Shown here one piece after another: positions 56,353 to 63,278 of a DNA stretch of 64,000 nucleotides. Origin of the DNA: an uncultured Paracoccaceae bacterium (GTDB lineage Bacteria > Pseudomonadota > Alphaproteobacteria > Rhodobacterales > Rhodobacteraceae); assembly GCA_937920555.1 (NCBI GenBank), contig CAKZTM010000047.1:1-64000 (forward strand). The letters run 5' to 3'. The notes under the pieces were generated by a model, which did not search any database, was not told the origin of the DNA, and was given only the letters and a program-made list of their open reading frames with translations. A program made the position numbers and the translations under genes. How positions within the stretch are numbered: position 1 is the first letter of the stretch; every line of letters starts with the position of its first letter.

Positions 56353-57399
<1,047 letters not shown>

Positions 57400-57659: not shown

Positions 57660-59219
57660 TTAAGCGGACTTAGATTCTTCCGGCGGCGCGGTGCGCAGGC
57701 GTTTGACCATCAGCTTATTGAGCGCGTTGACGTAGGCCTTTGCAGATGCCACGACCGTATCAGTGTCTGCGGACTGGCCGGTTACGATCTTGCCGTCCTC
57801 CTCCATTCTCACGCTGACCGTGGCTTGCGCATCTGTGCCTTCGGTCACCGCGTGAACCTGATAGAGCTGCAAGCTGGCCGTATGTGGGACGAGCTCTTTG
57901 ATCGCATTAAAAGTGGCGTCGACAGGGCCGTCTCCGCTTGCGGTGATTTGCTGGTCTACGCCGCCCACGCCCAATGTCAGTTCGGCCGATTGCGGCGCTT
58001 GGGTTCCACACACCACCCGCAGGAATTTGACCTTGATATGATCGTCCTCTGCCTGCGCATTGCTGTCGGACATGAGGGCGATCAAGTCCTCATCGTAGAT
58101 CTCTTTCTTGCGGTCAGCGAGCGCTTTGAAGCGAACGAAAACATCCTTGAGTTGGTTGTCCCCCAAATCATAGCCGAGGTTCTCCAGCTTCGAGCGCAAA
58201 GCCGCACGGCCCGAATGTTTGCCCATGACCAGATTGGTTTCCGACAGGCCAATATCTTCGGGCCGCATGATCTCGAAATTCTCCGCGTTCTTGAGCATGC
58301 CGTCTTGGTGAATCCCGCTCTCATGGGCAAAGGCGTTCTTGCCGACAATGGCTTTGTTGTACTGAACTGCAAAGCCAGAGACAGTGGCCACCTTCCGGCT
58401 AATCGCCATGATCTTCGTGGTGTCGATATCGGTCCGGTAGGGCATGATATCATTACGCACTTTCATCGCCATGACCACTTCTTCAAGGGCGGTATTGCCT
58501 GCCCGTTCGCCAAGGCCGTTGATGGTGCATTCAATCTGACGTGCGCCTGCCTCGACCGCCGCCAGTGAATTGGCCGTGGCCATGCCAAGATCATTGTGAC
58601 AATGGGTGGCGAAGATAACCTCATCTGCGCCCGGCACGCGGTCAATCAGCATGCGAATGATCTCCGCGCTTTCGCGTGGGGCGGTATAGCCGACCGTGTC
58701 CGGGATATTGATCGTGGTCGCACCCGCCTTGATGGCAATCTCGACGGTCCGGCAGAGATAATCGGCTTCCGTCCTTGTGGCATCCATGGGGGACCACTGT
58801 ACGTTGTCGCAAAGATTGCGCGCCCGCGTGACAGATGTGTGGATCACATCGGCCATCTCGTCCTTGGTCAGGCCGGGAATGTCGCGGTGAAGCGGGGAGG
58901 TCCCGATGAAGGTATGAATGCGTGGCCGGGCGCAGTTCTTTACAGCCTCCCAACAGCGATCAATATCGGCGTCCTTGGCCCGCGCAAGACCGCAAATCAC
59001 AGCATTGGGCGCGGCTTTGGCGATCTCTGTGACCGCCTCAAAATCGCCTTCGGAGGCTATGGGGAAACCAGCCTCGATAATATCGACCCCCATTTCATCG
59101 AGCATCGAGGCAATCTCGATCTTCTCAGACAAGGTCATGGTGGCGCCGGGCGATTGTTCGCCATCGCGCAATGTTGTGTCAAATATCAGGACGCGGTCCT
59201 GTTTGGATATATCGGTCAT
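57660..59219 (-). CDS. leuA: 2-isopropylmalate synthase
   Basis: 519 residues. The HMGL-like catalytic barrel has FDTTLRDGEQSPGATM at the start, the metal-binding ATHCHNDLGMATANSLAAVEAGA segment and GERAGNTALEEVVMAM; the C-terminal LeuA dimer domain (about residues 385-500) binds leucine for feedback inhibition. It condenses acetyl-CoA with 2-oxoisovalerate, the first step of leucine synthesis. An AAGGA ribosome-binding site sits 7 bases upstream. It is preceded by a leucine-rich leader ORF and hairpins. Confidence 0.96.
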   Translation of the reverse strand: MTDISKQDRVLIFDTTLRDGEQSPGATMTLSEKIEIASMLDEMGVDIIEAGFPIASEGDFEAVTEIAKAAPNAVICGLARAKDADIDRCWEAVKNCARPRIHTFIGTSPLHRDIPGLTKDEMADVIHTSVTRARNLCDNVQWSPMDATRTEADYLCRTVEIAIKAGATTINIPDTVGYTAPRESAEIIRMLIDRVPGADEVIFATHCHNDLGMATANSLAAVEAGARQIECTINGLGERAGNTALEEVVMAMKVRNDIMPYRTDIDTTKIMAISRKVATVSGFAVQYNKAIVGKNAFAHESGIHQDGMLKNAENFEIMRPEDIGLSETNLVMGKHSGRAALRSKLENLGYDLGDNQLKDVFVRFKALADRKKEIYDEDLIALMSDSNAQAEDDHIKVKFLRVVCGTQAPQSAELTLGVGGVDQQITASGDGPVDATFNAIKELVPHTASLQLYQVHAVTEGTDAQATVSVRMEEDGKIVTGQSADTDTVVASAKAYVNALNKLMVKRLRTAPPEESKSA

Positions 59220-59247
59220 TTGGAAATCCTTAGCTTTGGTGTGATGT

Positions 59248-59299
59248 GGCGCGGTGTCTCCTCTGAGCGCACGCGCCGATCTCTCAGCGCGCTCAGAGG
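59248..59299 (-). promoter_or_regulatory. candidate leuA attenuator hairpins
   Basis: Two alternative stems in the leuA leader RNA: CCUCUGAGCGC (59299-59289) with GCGCUCAGAGG (59270-59260), and GGCGCG (59277-59272) with CGCGCC (59253-59248). The first begins in the last codons of leuL, so a ribosome finishing the leader would block it. Neither stem is followed by a T-run, so control may act by Rho or by translation of leuA. Confidence 0.55.
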
Positions 59300-59364
59300 C
59301 TGCTAAGGAGTAGGCCGATCAGGGCTGCCCGACATGGGGCTTTATCTGCACCAATGCAAATCAT
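59293..59364 (-). CDS. leuL: leuA leader peptide, leucine-rich
   Basis: A 23-codon ORF from ATG 59364 to TGA 59293-59295 whose end reads ALIGLLLSSL, with five Leu codons in the last nine, three of them consecutive (CTA CTC CTT). The TGA lies within the first hairpin arm. A TATAAC -10 lies just before the ATG, so the leader may begin at or next to the start codon. Ribosome stalling at Leu codons when leucine is scarce is the expected signal. It is too short for usual gene calling. Confidence 0.72.
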   Translation of the reverse strand: MICIGADKAPCRAALIGLLLSSL

Positions 59365-59370
59365 GAGGCC

Positions 59371-59376
59371 GTTATA
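59371..59376 (-). promoter_or_regulatory. -10 element of leuL-leuA
   Basis: TATAAC on the minus strand, 6 bases before the leuL ATG, would place the transcription start at or very near the ATG, as in leaderless trpL of rhizobia. The -35 region is not convincing. Confidence 0.4.
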
Positions 59377-59446
59377 GCGCGATTTTGGCAGAGATAAAGA
59401 GGGTTTTTGGACTGGAATTCGGTGCGTGATGCGCCAAGTTAGGGTC

Positions 59447-60112: not shown

Positions 60113-61626
60113 CACGAATTGTCTTGGTATTGGGAGATCAGCTTTCGCCCCAGCTTTCAGCACTGAGAGCTGCGGATAAGGCGTCGGACATTGTCTTGAT
60201 GGCTGAGGTTATGGGGGAGGCCACTTATGTAGGGCATCATCCCAAAAAGATCGCTTTGCTTTTTGCGGCAATGCGAAAGTTTGCAGGTGAACTTGTTCAA
60301 GCTGGCTGGACCGTCGATTATATCAGGTTAAACGATACGGAAAATTCCGGTTCGCTGATTGGTGAGATCGAACGGGCAATGGCGCGCCATAATGCCGCGG
60401 ATGTTGTGTCGACACTGGCTGGCGAATGGCGGGTGCGTGATGAAATCGCACAAGCGTCAGATGCGCTGCCCGATGACCGGTTTGTTGCGACTGAAGAGGA
60501 ATTTGCGAAATGGGCTGAGGGCCGCAAGGAGCTGCGCATGGAGTTCTTTTATCGCAACATGCGGCGCAAGACCGGGCTTTTGATGGACGGCGATAGGCCG
60601 ATCGGTGGCAAATGGAACTTTGATGCGGACAATCGAAAAGCCGCTGCTCCTGACTTGTTCATGCCGGCTCCATTGCGCCATCCGCCGGATGAAATCACTC
60701 GGGATGTTCTTGACCTTGTGACGGAGCGCTTCGGTGATCACTTTGGCGATTTGGAGCCCTTTTGGTTCGCTACAGACAGAAGCGGTGCAGAGGCGGCGGC
60801 CACGCATTTCATTGAGCACGCCTTACCGAAATTTGGTGATTATCAGGATGCCATGCTGTCGGGTGAGCATTTTCTCTACCATTCGGTTGTGTCGATTTAC
60901 CTAAATATTGGGCTTTTGGAGCCGCTACATTTATGCGCGATGGCCGAGCGGGCCTATCATCAGGGCGATGCGCCACTCAATGCGGTGGAAGGGTTTATTC
61001 GGCAAATCATCGGCTGGCGGGAGTATATTCGGGGCATCTACTTTTGGTCTGGCCGGGATTACACACAGTCGAATTTTTTGGGCGCCTCTCGGGACTTGCC
61101 AGGATTTTATTGGACTGCTGATACTGACATGGCCTGTGTACGGGAAGCGGTTTCGCAAACGAAATCAGAGGCCTACGCGCATCACATCCAACGGCTTATG
61201 GTTACTGGTAATTTTGCGATGATCGCCGGGGTTGCGCCTGCGCATGTGCATGAATGGTATTTGGCGGTTTACGCGGATGCGTTTGAGTGGGTTGAGGCCC
61301 CCAATGTCATCGGCATGAGCCAGTTTGCCGATGGGGGTGTTTTGGCGTCCAAGCCCTACGCAAGCTCGGGGGCGTATATCAACCGAATGTCGGATTATTG
61401 TGGCTCTTGCCACTATGTTGTCACCGACCGAACGGGCGAAAAAGCGTGCCCTTTCAATGCGTTATACTGGGATTTTCTGGACCGGAACCGTCCTAAACTT
61501 GGGAAAAACCAACGGCTGGGTCTGGCCTATCGAAATTGGGACCGTATGGATGGTGAAGATCAGGACGCCCTGAGAACAAAGGCGGCGGAGACGTTAGGCG
61601 CGCTGGACCGCGGCGACCGGATTTAG
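60109..61626 (+). CDS. phrB: iron-sulphur (6-4) photolyase, PhrB/CryB type
   Basis: 505 residues from a GTG that overlaps the SDR stop (GTGA). It belongs to the FeS-BCP photolyase group: four cysteines at 343, 431, 434 and 447 have exactly the spacing (88, 3, 13) of the [4Fe-4S] ligands of Agrobacterium PhrB, and GWREYIRGIYFWSGRDY and NFAMIAGVAPAHVHEWYL line the FAD site. It repairs (6-4) photoproducts with blue light; the Rhodobacter relative CryB has also been linked to light signalling. Its stop shares bases with the convergent MORN gene stop. Confidence 0.92.
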   Translation: MTRIVLVLGDQLSPQLSALRAADKASDIVLMAEVMGEATYVGHHPKKIALLFAAMRKFAGELVQAGWTVDYIRLNDTENSGSLIGEIERAMARHNAADVVSTLAGEWRVRDEIAQASDALPDDRFVATEEEFAKWAEGRKELRMEFFYRNMRRKTGLLMDGDRPIGGKWNFDADNRKAAAPDLFMPAPLRHPPDEITRDVLDLVTERFGDHFGDLEPFWFATDRSGAEAAATHFIEHALPKFGDYQDAMLSGEHFLYHSVVSIYLNIGLLEPLHLCAMAERAYHQGDAPLNAVEGFIRQIIGWREYIRGIYFWSGRDYTQSNFLGASRDLPGFYWTADTDMACVREAVSQTKSEAYAHHIQRLMVTGNFAMIAGVAPAHVHEWYLAVYADAFEWVEAPNVIGMSQFADGGVLASKPYASSGAYINRMSDYCGSCHYVVTDRTGEKACPFNALYWDFLDRNRPKLGKNQRLGLAYRNWDRMDGEDQDALRTKAAETLGALDRGDRI

Positions 61627-63077
61627 TTCTCAGATGCGGCCGCCTCGGCCTCGGCAGCGGCGGCTTCCTCTTCAGTTGCCTGTCTGCCATTGGCCCAGAA
61701 GCCGTCATATTCTTCGCCATTAGCGTATTTCATAAGCCCCGTGCCTTGGCGCTGACCTTTTCGGAATTCGCCTTCATACACATCGCCATTGGGATAGGTG
61801 GCGACGCCTTTTCCGTCGATCTCACCGGTGCTCCAAGAGCCATCATAGACAAAGCCGTCGGGCATGGTGATTGTACCATCGCCATCACGTTGGCCATTCA
61901 CAAATGTGCCTTCATAAATGGTGCCGTCGGCATATGTTGCGGTCCCTGTACCGTGGCGCAAACCATTTTCCCACGCGCCCGTGTATTTATAACCGTCGCC
62001 ATAAGTCATAGTGCCAACGCCGTGATTTTTGGCGTTTTTGAACTCGCCCTCGTAAACGAGACCATTGTCGTATCTGGCCAGACCGCTTCCTTCGATCACG
62101 CCGTTGCGCCAATCCCCTTCATAGGAGGAGCCGTCAGTGTAGGTGATTTTTCCGACCCCTTGGGCCACATCATTGAGAAATTCACCCTCATAAACAGAGC
62201 CGTCTGCATAGGTCACTTTACCTGTGCCCTGAATGCGGCCTTCGACCCATTCGCCTTCGTATTTATAGCCGTCCGCACCGGTGAACGTGCCTGTGCCGTG
62301 GCGCTGGTCGTCTTTGAATTCGCCCACATAGATATCGCCATTGGCGTAAGTTGCGGTACCCGAACCTTCACGGCGGCCATTGACCAATGTGCCCTCATAG
62401 CGATCGCCATTGCCATGGGTCAGCACGCCTGTGCCGTTGATCTGTCCCCCCGCCCAAGCGCCGGTATAGATCAGCCCGTCGGGCATAGTCAGTGTTCCTT
62501 GGCCTTCGCGCACGCCCGACTTGATGGCACCTTCGTAGACGGCACCGTCGGCATAAGTGATCTTACCTTTGCCCTCTTTGGTACCTGCGACCCAATCGCC
62601 CTCATAGCGGTAGCCGGTCGATGAGGTCATAACCCCAAAGCCGTCATGGACCGCGTCTTTGAACGCGCCTTCATAGGTTACGCCATTGGCATAGACCGCC
62701 ACGCCTGTGCCCGCGATTTTGCCGTCCAGCCAGTCACCCTCATAGGTGCCGCCATCGGAGAATGTGATTTTGCCTTTGCCCTCGGGGCGACCATTGGCAA
62801 ATGTCCCCTCATAGACCGAACCGTTGGGGAATTTCGCAACGCCAGTGCCTTCAATGCGCCCATCCACCCATTCGCCAACATATTCGTAGCCATTGGGCAG
62901 AGTGTATTTGCCTTGTCCGTGCTGTTTGCCGTCCTTGAATTCACCTTCGTAAATTCCGCCGGTGTCATATTGCTTTGTTTCAACTGTGGTTTCCGATTGC
63001 GCGAAGGCCGGTCCCGCGAGTCCAAGGGCTACAACTGTCGCGAATGCTATGCGTGTGTGTGAAGATATGCTTGTCAC
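61623..63077 (-). CDS. MORN-repeat protein, exported, 19 repeats
   Basis: 484 residues from a GTG at 63077 with AGGGTGG upstream; a longer ORF from 63182 is possible but adds no recognisable sequence. A signal peptide ends at PAFAQ, followed by 19 tandem 23-residue MORN units (Y-E-G-x-F/W, then G-x-G-x-G). The last residue of successive units alternates F and W, giving 46-residue pairs, except at units 7-10. It is probably periplasmic or surface-exposed, and could bind lipids or partners. The final 15 residues are Ala/Glu-rich. Confidence 0.85.
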   Translation of the reverse strand: MTSISSHTRIAFATVVALGLAGPAFAQSETTVETKQYDTGGIYEGEFKDGKQHGQGKYTLPNGYEYVGEWVDGRIEGTGVAKFPNGSVYEGTFANGRPEGKGKITFSDGGTYEGDWLDGKIAGTGVAVYANGVTYEGAFKDAVHDGFGVMTSSTGYRYEGDWVAGTKEGKGKITYADGAVYEGAIKSGVREGQGTLTMPDGLIYTGAWAGGQINGTGVLTHGNGDRYEGTLVNGRREGSGTATYANGDIYVGEFKDDQRHGTGTFTGADGYKYEGEWVEGRIQGTGKVTYADGSVYEGEFLNDVAQGVGKITYTDGSSYEGDWRNGVIEGSGLARYDNGLVYEGEFKNAKNHGVGTMTYGDGYKYTGAWENGLRHGTGTATYADGTIYEGTFVNGQRDGDGTITMPDGFVYDGSWSTGEIDGKGVATYPNGDVYEGEFRKGQRQGTGLMKYANGEEYDGFWANGRQATEEEAAAAEAEAAASEN

Positions 63078-63278
63078 GTTGCCCACCCTGCGTGCCCTTT
63101 GGGGCGTACAGGTCCCTCTGCGCTGTTTCTCGTTGCAGCGAATGTAGTGAGTTGCGCGGCTATGCTCAACGCTTTTTTCCACCCCAGATTTGTGGTTTAG
63201 ATTTGGTGATCTTACTTGTGGGCATGATGCTTCTCCCGTAACCCTTCGGGAGTGTCTTTAGGCTTCGGAGTTACGGGT

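Follow-up and report, generated by a model that had tools for sequence, protein, structure and literature searches.

A candidate leucine-responsive leader RNA upstream of leuA in Rhodobacteraceae shares its layout with the actinobacterial LEU element

Leader ORF and Helices Upstream of leuA

We analyzed a stretch of 64,000 nucleotides from an uncultured Paracoccaceae bacterium (contig CAKZTM010000047.1, positions 1 to 64,000; hereafter the window), in which leuA, a short upstream ORF (uORF), promoter-like boxes, and three helices, S1, S2, and P1, all lie on the minus strand (Table 1). A preliminary description of the locus had pointed to a 23-codon leader ORF with three consecutive Leu codons, to its stop codon within the arm of an 11-bp perfect stem, and to the lack of a T-run after the stems. 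All of this was borne out: the stop codon TGA occupies positions 59295-59293 inside S1, S1 comprises 11 perfect pairs, and no terminator-like site was found within the window. In the window, leuA is flanked by genes of the MreB-like and MORN-repeat types (56353-57393 and 61623-63182), and a similar neighborhood was seen in one relative (L021).

Table 1. Features of the leuA leader in the window
Feature	Position	Strand	Basis
leuA (2-isopropylmalate synthase), predicted regulated gene	57660..59219	-	ORF list and relatives
Leader peptide ORF, 23 codons, MICIGADKAPCRAALIGLLLSSL*	59293..59364	-	Sequence; frame kept in relatives
Three putative regulatory Leu codons, CTA CTC CTT	59305..59313	-	Leader codon usage in the family
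-10-like hexamer TATAAC, 6 nt 5' of the leader ATG, leaderless start predicted	59371..59376	-	Family counts
-35-like hexamer CTTTAT, 17 nt 5' of the -10 box	59394..59399	-	Sequence and aligned relatives
S1 5' arm CCTCTGAGCGC, carries the leader stop codon	59289..59299	-	Sequence; class-wide covariation
S1 3' arm GCGCTCAGAGG	59260..59270	-	Sequence; class-wide covariation
S2 5' strand GGCGCG, within the S1 loop	59272..59277	-	Own versus shuffled pairing in the family
S2 3' strand CGCGCC, predicted H-type pseudoknot with S1	59248..59253	-	Own above shuffled pairing (P = 9e-17), Rhodobacteraceae
P1 5' strand TCCTTAGC (UCCUUAGC), putative anti-Shine-Dalgarno, in Leu/Ser codons	59302..59309	-	Complementarity, fold, and family statistics
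P1 3' strand GCTAAGGA (GCUAAGGA), contains the leuA Shine-Dalgarno AAGGA, 7 nt 5' of the ATG	59227..59234	-	Complementarity, fold, and family statistics

The second stem had been described as overlapping the other arm of the first, the two forming alternative hairpins. S2 does span the 3' arm of S1, but it has no base in common with the 11-bp S1 of the window, which argues against mutually exclusive hairpins; the two can coexist and are expected to form an H-type pseudoknot together. The third helix, P1, pairs 8 complementary bases and is the one best placed to act as a switch; it lies partly outside the region of the preliminary description, which had missed it. The minimum-energy fold of the window contains both P1 and S1 (z score of -2.2 in comparison with dinucleotide shuffles). 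An inner TGCC/GGCG pairing, present in most members of the family, is absent from the window.

Conservation of the Element in Rhodobacteraceae

Among the regions upstream of leuA in 30 relatives, 28 carried the element directly 5' of leuA. The other two (L021 and L027) at first seemed to be without it but have it upstream of a small cupin-domain-like gene, which in turn precedes leuA; this position suggests that the gene has joined a leucine-controlled operon. The core of the element, CGCCTCTGAGCGTGCC..GGCGCGACCGCTCAGAGG, is strongly conserved across the family. A covariance model of the core built from 27 sequences (R1) had a single match in each of 383 of the 396 family genomes, some of which had supplied the sequences of the model, and at least 120 stretches of named genomes contained an exact 22-mer from the core. 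Of the 80 matches listed with titles, most carried the name of Rhodobacteraceae, of Rhodobacterales, or of a genus assigned to them, and a few were titled only as alphaproteobacteria or bacteria. Among 120 matches listed, 113 lay on the leuA strand no more than 400 nt upstream of the gene and 5 further ones at 438-444 nt from it, and for 2 loci the stored stretch did not include leuA. A conserved leucine leader peptide and its link to leuA, proposed initially from the one locus, are thus strongly supported by comparison across the family genomes. A chance origin of the element was rejected on the genome matches of R1, the covariation of S1, the conservation of the reading frame, and the statistics of P1.

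Evidence for a Translated, Leaderless uORF

The TATAAC just before the leader ATG had been taken as a sign of a leaderless transcript, and this reading gained strong support from the relatives. A -10-like box was found 6-8 nt before an in-frame ATG in 146 of 168 Rhodobacteraceae leaders (a few loci representing the same genome twice), in comparison with 2 of 79 out-of-frame ATGs having such a box at that distance. When only unique sequences were counted, 134 of the ATGs with a -10-like box at 6-8 nt were in frame and none was out of frame; given this bias, a uORF that is both translated and leaderless is well supported by the comparison. In the unique sequences anchored on the box, the uORF varies from 13 to 36 codons in length. 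The alignment of the 134 unique relatives on the -10 box also revealed a CTTTCC-like -35 element 17 nt further upstream, the first two T of its CTTT being conserved in 100% and 96% of the sequences. As a feature of the whole class, the leaderless start was rejected, since only 3 of 50 leaders outside the family showed it.

The family leader peptides have a median length of 28 codons, and 148 of the 155 unique ones contain the sequence LLL. Their Leu codons are CTT in 57%, CTC in 19%, and CTG in 17% of cases, in comparison with 7%, 20%, and 62%, respectively, in the leuA coding sequence; CTT and CTC together thus account for 76% of the Leu codons in the leader and 27% of those in leuA.

Statistics of Base Pairing

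Within the family, 97% of the S1 cells pair and few columns vary. For 42 sequences aligned at the class level, the paired share was 96.7% and changes on both sides were observed in 8 of 10 pairs, the covariation score being reached by 0 of 500 shuffles. The stop codon of the leader changes together with the opposite arm of S1, TGA occurring with TCA and TAG with TTA. The comparison of regions upstream of leuA that had been proposed as a check gave both conserved Leu codons and compensatory base changes. For S2, the own pairing exceeded that of shuffled sequences in the family (P = 9e-17), and other alphaproteobacteria showed no excess over shuffles (P = 0.78); with no S2 signal outside Rhodobacteraceae, the pseudoknot was rejected as a class-wide feature.

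The pairing of P1 exceeded that of dinucleotide shuffles among 155 unique family members (P = 2.5e-21) and among 56 other alphaproteobacteria (P = 2.4e-5), and likewise that with partners taken from other species (P = 2.5e-12 and 3.6e-6, respectively), these P values ignoring the relatedness of the sequences. A control segment 12 codons upstream gave no excess over shuffles in the family (P = 0.78) or in the others (P = 0.21), and was slightly above other-species partners in the other alphaproteobacteria (P = 0.004), relatedness again being ignored. The Leu codons CTC and CTT inherently resemble an anti-Shine-Dalgarno sequence, but the controls argue that this is not the whole of the P1 signal. 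Of the strong P1 helices, 96% in the family and only 58% in other alphaproteobacteria end at most 25 nt from the leuA start; of 97 strong family helices, 55 include the Shine-Dalgarno core, and about 4 in 10 are without the core itself. Re-paired variants of P1 include TCCTTATCC/GGATAAGGA (L106), TGGTCCTTCG/CGAAGGACCA (L078), GACTTAGGTG/CACCTAAGTC (L105), and CCTAAGCC/GGTTTAGG (L002).

Across the class, 206 of the 211 unique members have CTTA or CTAA just 5' of S1 (59307-59304 in the window), including members whose P1 makes no use of this motif.

Proposed Mechanism and Alternatives

We consider it probable, though by no means assured, that the element is a ribosome-operated leader RNA that responds to leucine and controls the translation of leuA, that is, a translational attenuator. 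The transcript would start at or beside the ATG of the uORF, which the conservation of the frame suggests is translated. With ample leucine, the ribosome would clear the Leu codons and depart, and the Leu-codon stretch could then pair with the Shine-Dalgarno region of leuA as P1, held by the pseudoknot of S1 and S2, keeping leuA translation low. Under a shortage of Leu-tRNA, the ribosome would stall, its A site occupied by the first Leu codon, and its footprint, ending just before S1, would cover the 5' strand of P1, so that P1 could not form, the Shine-Dalgarno sequence would be uncovered, and leuA would be translated. The leader parts, their conservation, and their pairing come from the comparison of genomes, and from these we infer the switching and the leucine response.

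In constrained folding with a ribosome placed on the first Leu codon, the unpaired fraction of the leuA start region rose from 0.52 to 0.60 (P = 3e-16), and a ribosome placed 12 codons upstream had no effect on that region. The modeled opening is modest and does not appear in some members, and the folding ignores the pseudoknot. The occurrence of the same layout across Alphaproteobacteria, together with compensatory changes between the Leu codons and the leuA start, favors a translational switch operated by the ribosome. Such a switch would account as well for the biased Leu codons of the leader, these being chosen for their complementarity to the ribosome-binding site.

Leader translation could instead gate RNA polymerase into leuA, by intrinsic or Rho-dependent attenuation of transcription with S1 and S2 acting as a pause or a terminator. 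S1 is a strong GC-rich hairpin, it is followed by T8 in one divergent relative (L163), and the classical leu attenuators of gammaproteobacteria work in this mode. However, of the 155 unique family members only 1 has a U-rich tract after S1, and such a tract is missing from the other 154 as well as from 52 of 56 other alphaproteobacteria, so that an intrinsic terminator was rejected for Rhodobacteraceae; moreover, the window has no terminator-like site, and the pairing of the Leu codons with the leuA start region would be left unexplained. We therefore regard transcription attenuation as unlikely. The preliminary description had left the choice between Rho and the blocking of translation; P1 appears to favor the latter, leaving Rho as the less likely possibility.

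A regulatory protein that binds the structured leader, with the uORF being secondary, has been proposed for the actinobacterial LEU element and would account for the extreme conservation of CGCCTCTGAGCGTGCC in the family and for the near-invariant CTTA before S1 (CTTA or CTAA in 206 of 211), which goes beyond what pairing explains; the effects of codon mutations in Streptomyces coelicolor were also not clear-cut (cited in PMC1262725). The conservation of the frame (134 to 0) and the bias of the Leu codons nevertheless show that the uORF matters, and we see a binding protein as the improbable answer. Even more doubtful is a uORF that reads codon identity, that is, the supply of CTT/CTC isoacceptors, and acts only via mRNA stability or ribosome load, with P1 as a by-product of the complementarity between Leu codons and the Shine-Dalgarno sequence. 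CTT and CTC could be read by one tRNA, and their share of the leader Leu codons, nearly three times that in leuA, fits such a reader, but P1 extends past the codons into matched flanks and pairs better than partners from other species do.

Relation to Known Leader Elements

The leader element of the window has its closest counterpart in the LEU element found upstream of leuA in Actinobacteria, which contains a uORF with Leu codons, a pseudoknot, and a base stem between the Leu codons and the leuA Shine-Dalgarno sequence (Seliverstov et al. 2005, PMC1262725). That study cast doubt on classical attenuation and suggested a protein; it also cites mutations of the Leu codons in S. coelicolor whose effects were inconsistent with classical attenuation (PMC1262725). 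The leader of Streptomyces lividans, MRFGLLLLSCRGEGL, is reported to be leaderless and without a terminator (PMC8079986). We found S1, S2, and P1 in the same order as in the window at loci of Tsukamurella, Nonomuraea, Nocardia, and Microbacterium. At these four loci, the end of P1 is 4-6 nt upstream of the ATG.

The window shares with the LEU element a uORF that lies upstream of leuA and carries consecutive Leu codons, a hairpin at the end of the uORF, the lack of a terminator, a predicted leaderless start of the uORF (reported for S. lividans), and a base stem between the Leu codons and the leuA Shine-Dalgarno sequence, here of 8 pairs. A pseudoknot within the base stem is likewise indicated by complementarity in the window and the family, though not in other alphaproteobacteria (P = 0.78). 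The two differ in phylum and show little sequence similarity, the leader peptide of Rhodobacteraceae is longer, and the alphaproteobacterial form outside this family is without detectable S2 and often has LRL. As judged from sequence, the window element matches the LEU architecture, a likeness of layout that may, but need not, reflect common descent; having the architectural features tested, it may be expected to work like the LEU element.

Other known leaders are more distant. The attenuator of the gammaproteobacterial leu operon (Leu_leader in Rfam) also places a leucine-rich leader peptide before leu genes, but the window leader is without a U-tract terminator and is predicted to act on translation. 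No Rfam family, Leu_leader included, matched the window element at its gathering score, and the one weak hit, to sX12, was noise (22.4 bits against a threshold of 106). The trpL leader of Sinorhizobium (rnTrpL/peTrpL), also from an alphaproteobacterium, has a leaderless uORF at the 5' end of the transcript (PMC10117765) but is a transcription attenuator with another amino acid and structure. The uORFC-8-2 motif upstream of cysS, from the same order Rhodobacterales, has an amino-acid-specific uORF, yet with Cys codons and an intrinsic terminator (PMC8632094); its name points to a further motif, uORFC-8-1. In the openly accessible literature, we found no relevant paper on leuA leaders in alphaproteobacteria, and the same literature reports the LEU element from Actinobacteria alone (2005) and leaves its mechanism unsettled. 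A counterpart of the LEU element in Alphaproteobacteria brings the question of mechanism to tractable bacteria such as Cereibacter sphaeroides.

Leucine Leaders in Other Alphaproteobacteria

In a sample of the class, 12 weak matches of R1 fell outside the family, each of them directly upstream of leuA, and regions upstream of leuA across the class contained divergent leucine leaders in many other families. Their uORFs end in LLLL(I/S)RP or LRL(S/T/I/R)xP, with the stop inside GCCCCTGAGCG/CGCTCAGGGG, and they have P1 pairings such as GACTTAGGTG/CACCTAAGTC and TGGTCCTTCG/CGAAGGACCA and no detectable S2. In 34 of the 56 (e.g., L105, L116, and L125), Leu-Arg-Leu with the Arg codon CGA (CTTCGACTTA) replaces the Leu run. 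A class-level model (R2) matched 63 of 241 alphaproteobacterial genomes, the training genomes included; in a sample of the phylum, all 49 matching genomes were alphaproteobacteria, and leuA adjoined the element at each of the 55 R2 loci fetched.

In some relatives (e.g., family f13), the element precedes the other, actinobacterial-like type of LeuA. We tentatively suggest, at somewhat less than even chance, that the leucine leaders of Actinobacteria and Alphaproteobacteria form one widespread class of riboregulators, in which the sensing codons are the anti-Shine-Dalgarno sequence, and which occurs with both of the distantly related LeuA types and may have moved with them. If this is true, sensor and switch are the same nucleotides.

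Upstream of leuA in the divergent alphaproteobacterium L163 (genome G536), S1 has at least 14 pairs and is followed by T8, resembling an intrinsic terminator; the element may thus have become a transcription attenuator in this lineage. On plasmids of Rhizobium and Shinella with the actinobacterial type of LeuA (L296 and L297), the uORF upstream of leuA ends in ALRL(S/T)(R/G)GRRA, and the Rhizobium locus has an 11-bp stem, TTCCGTTGCAT/ATGCAACGGAA, whose end is 6 nt upstream of the leuA ATG. These leaders resemble those of Actinobacteria (GGGCCTGA) and look intermediate.
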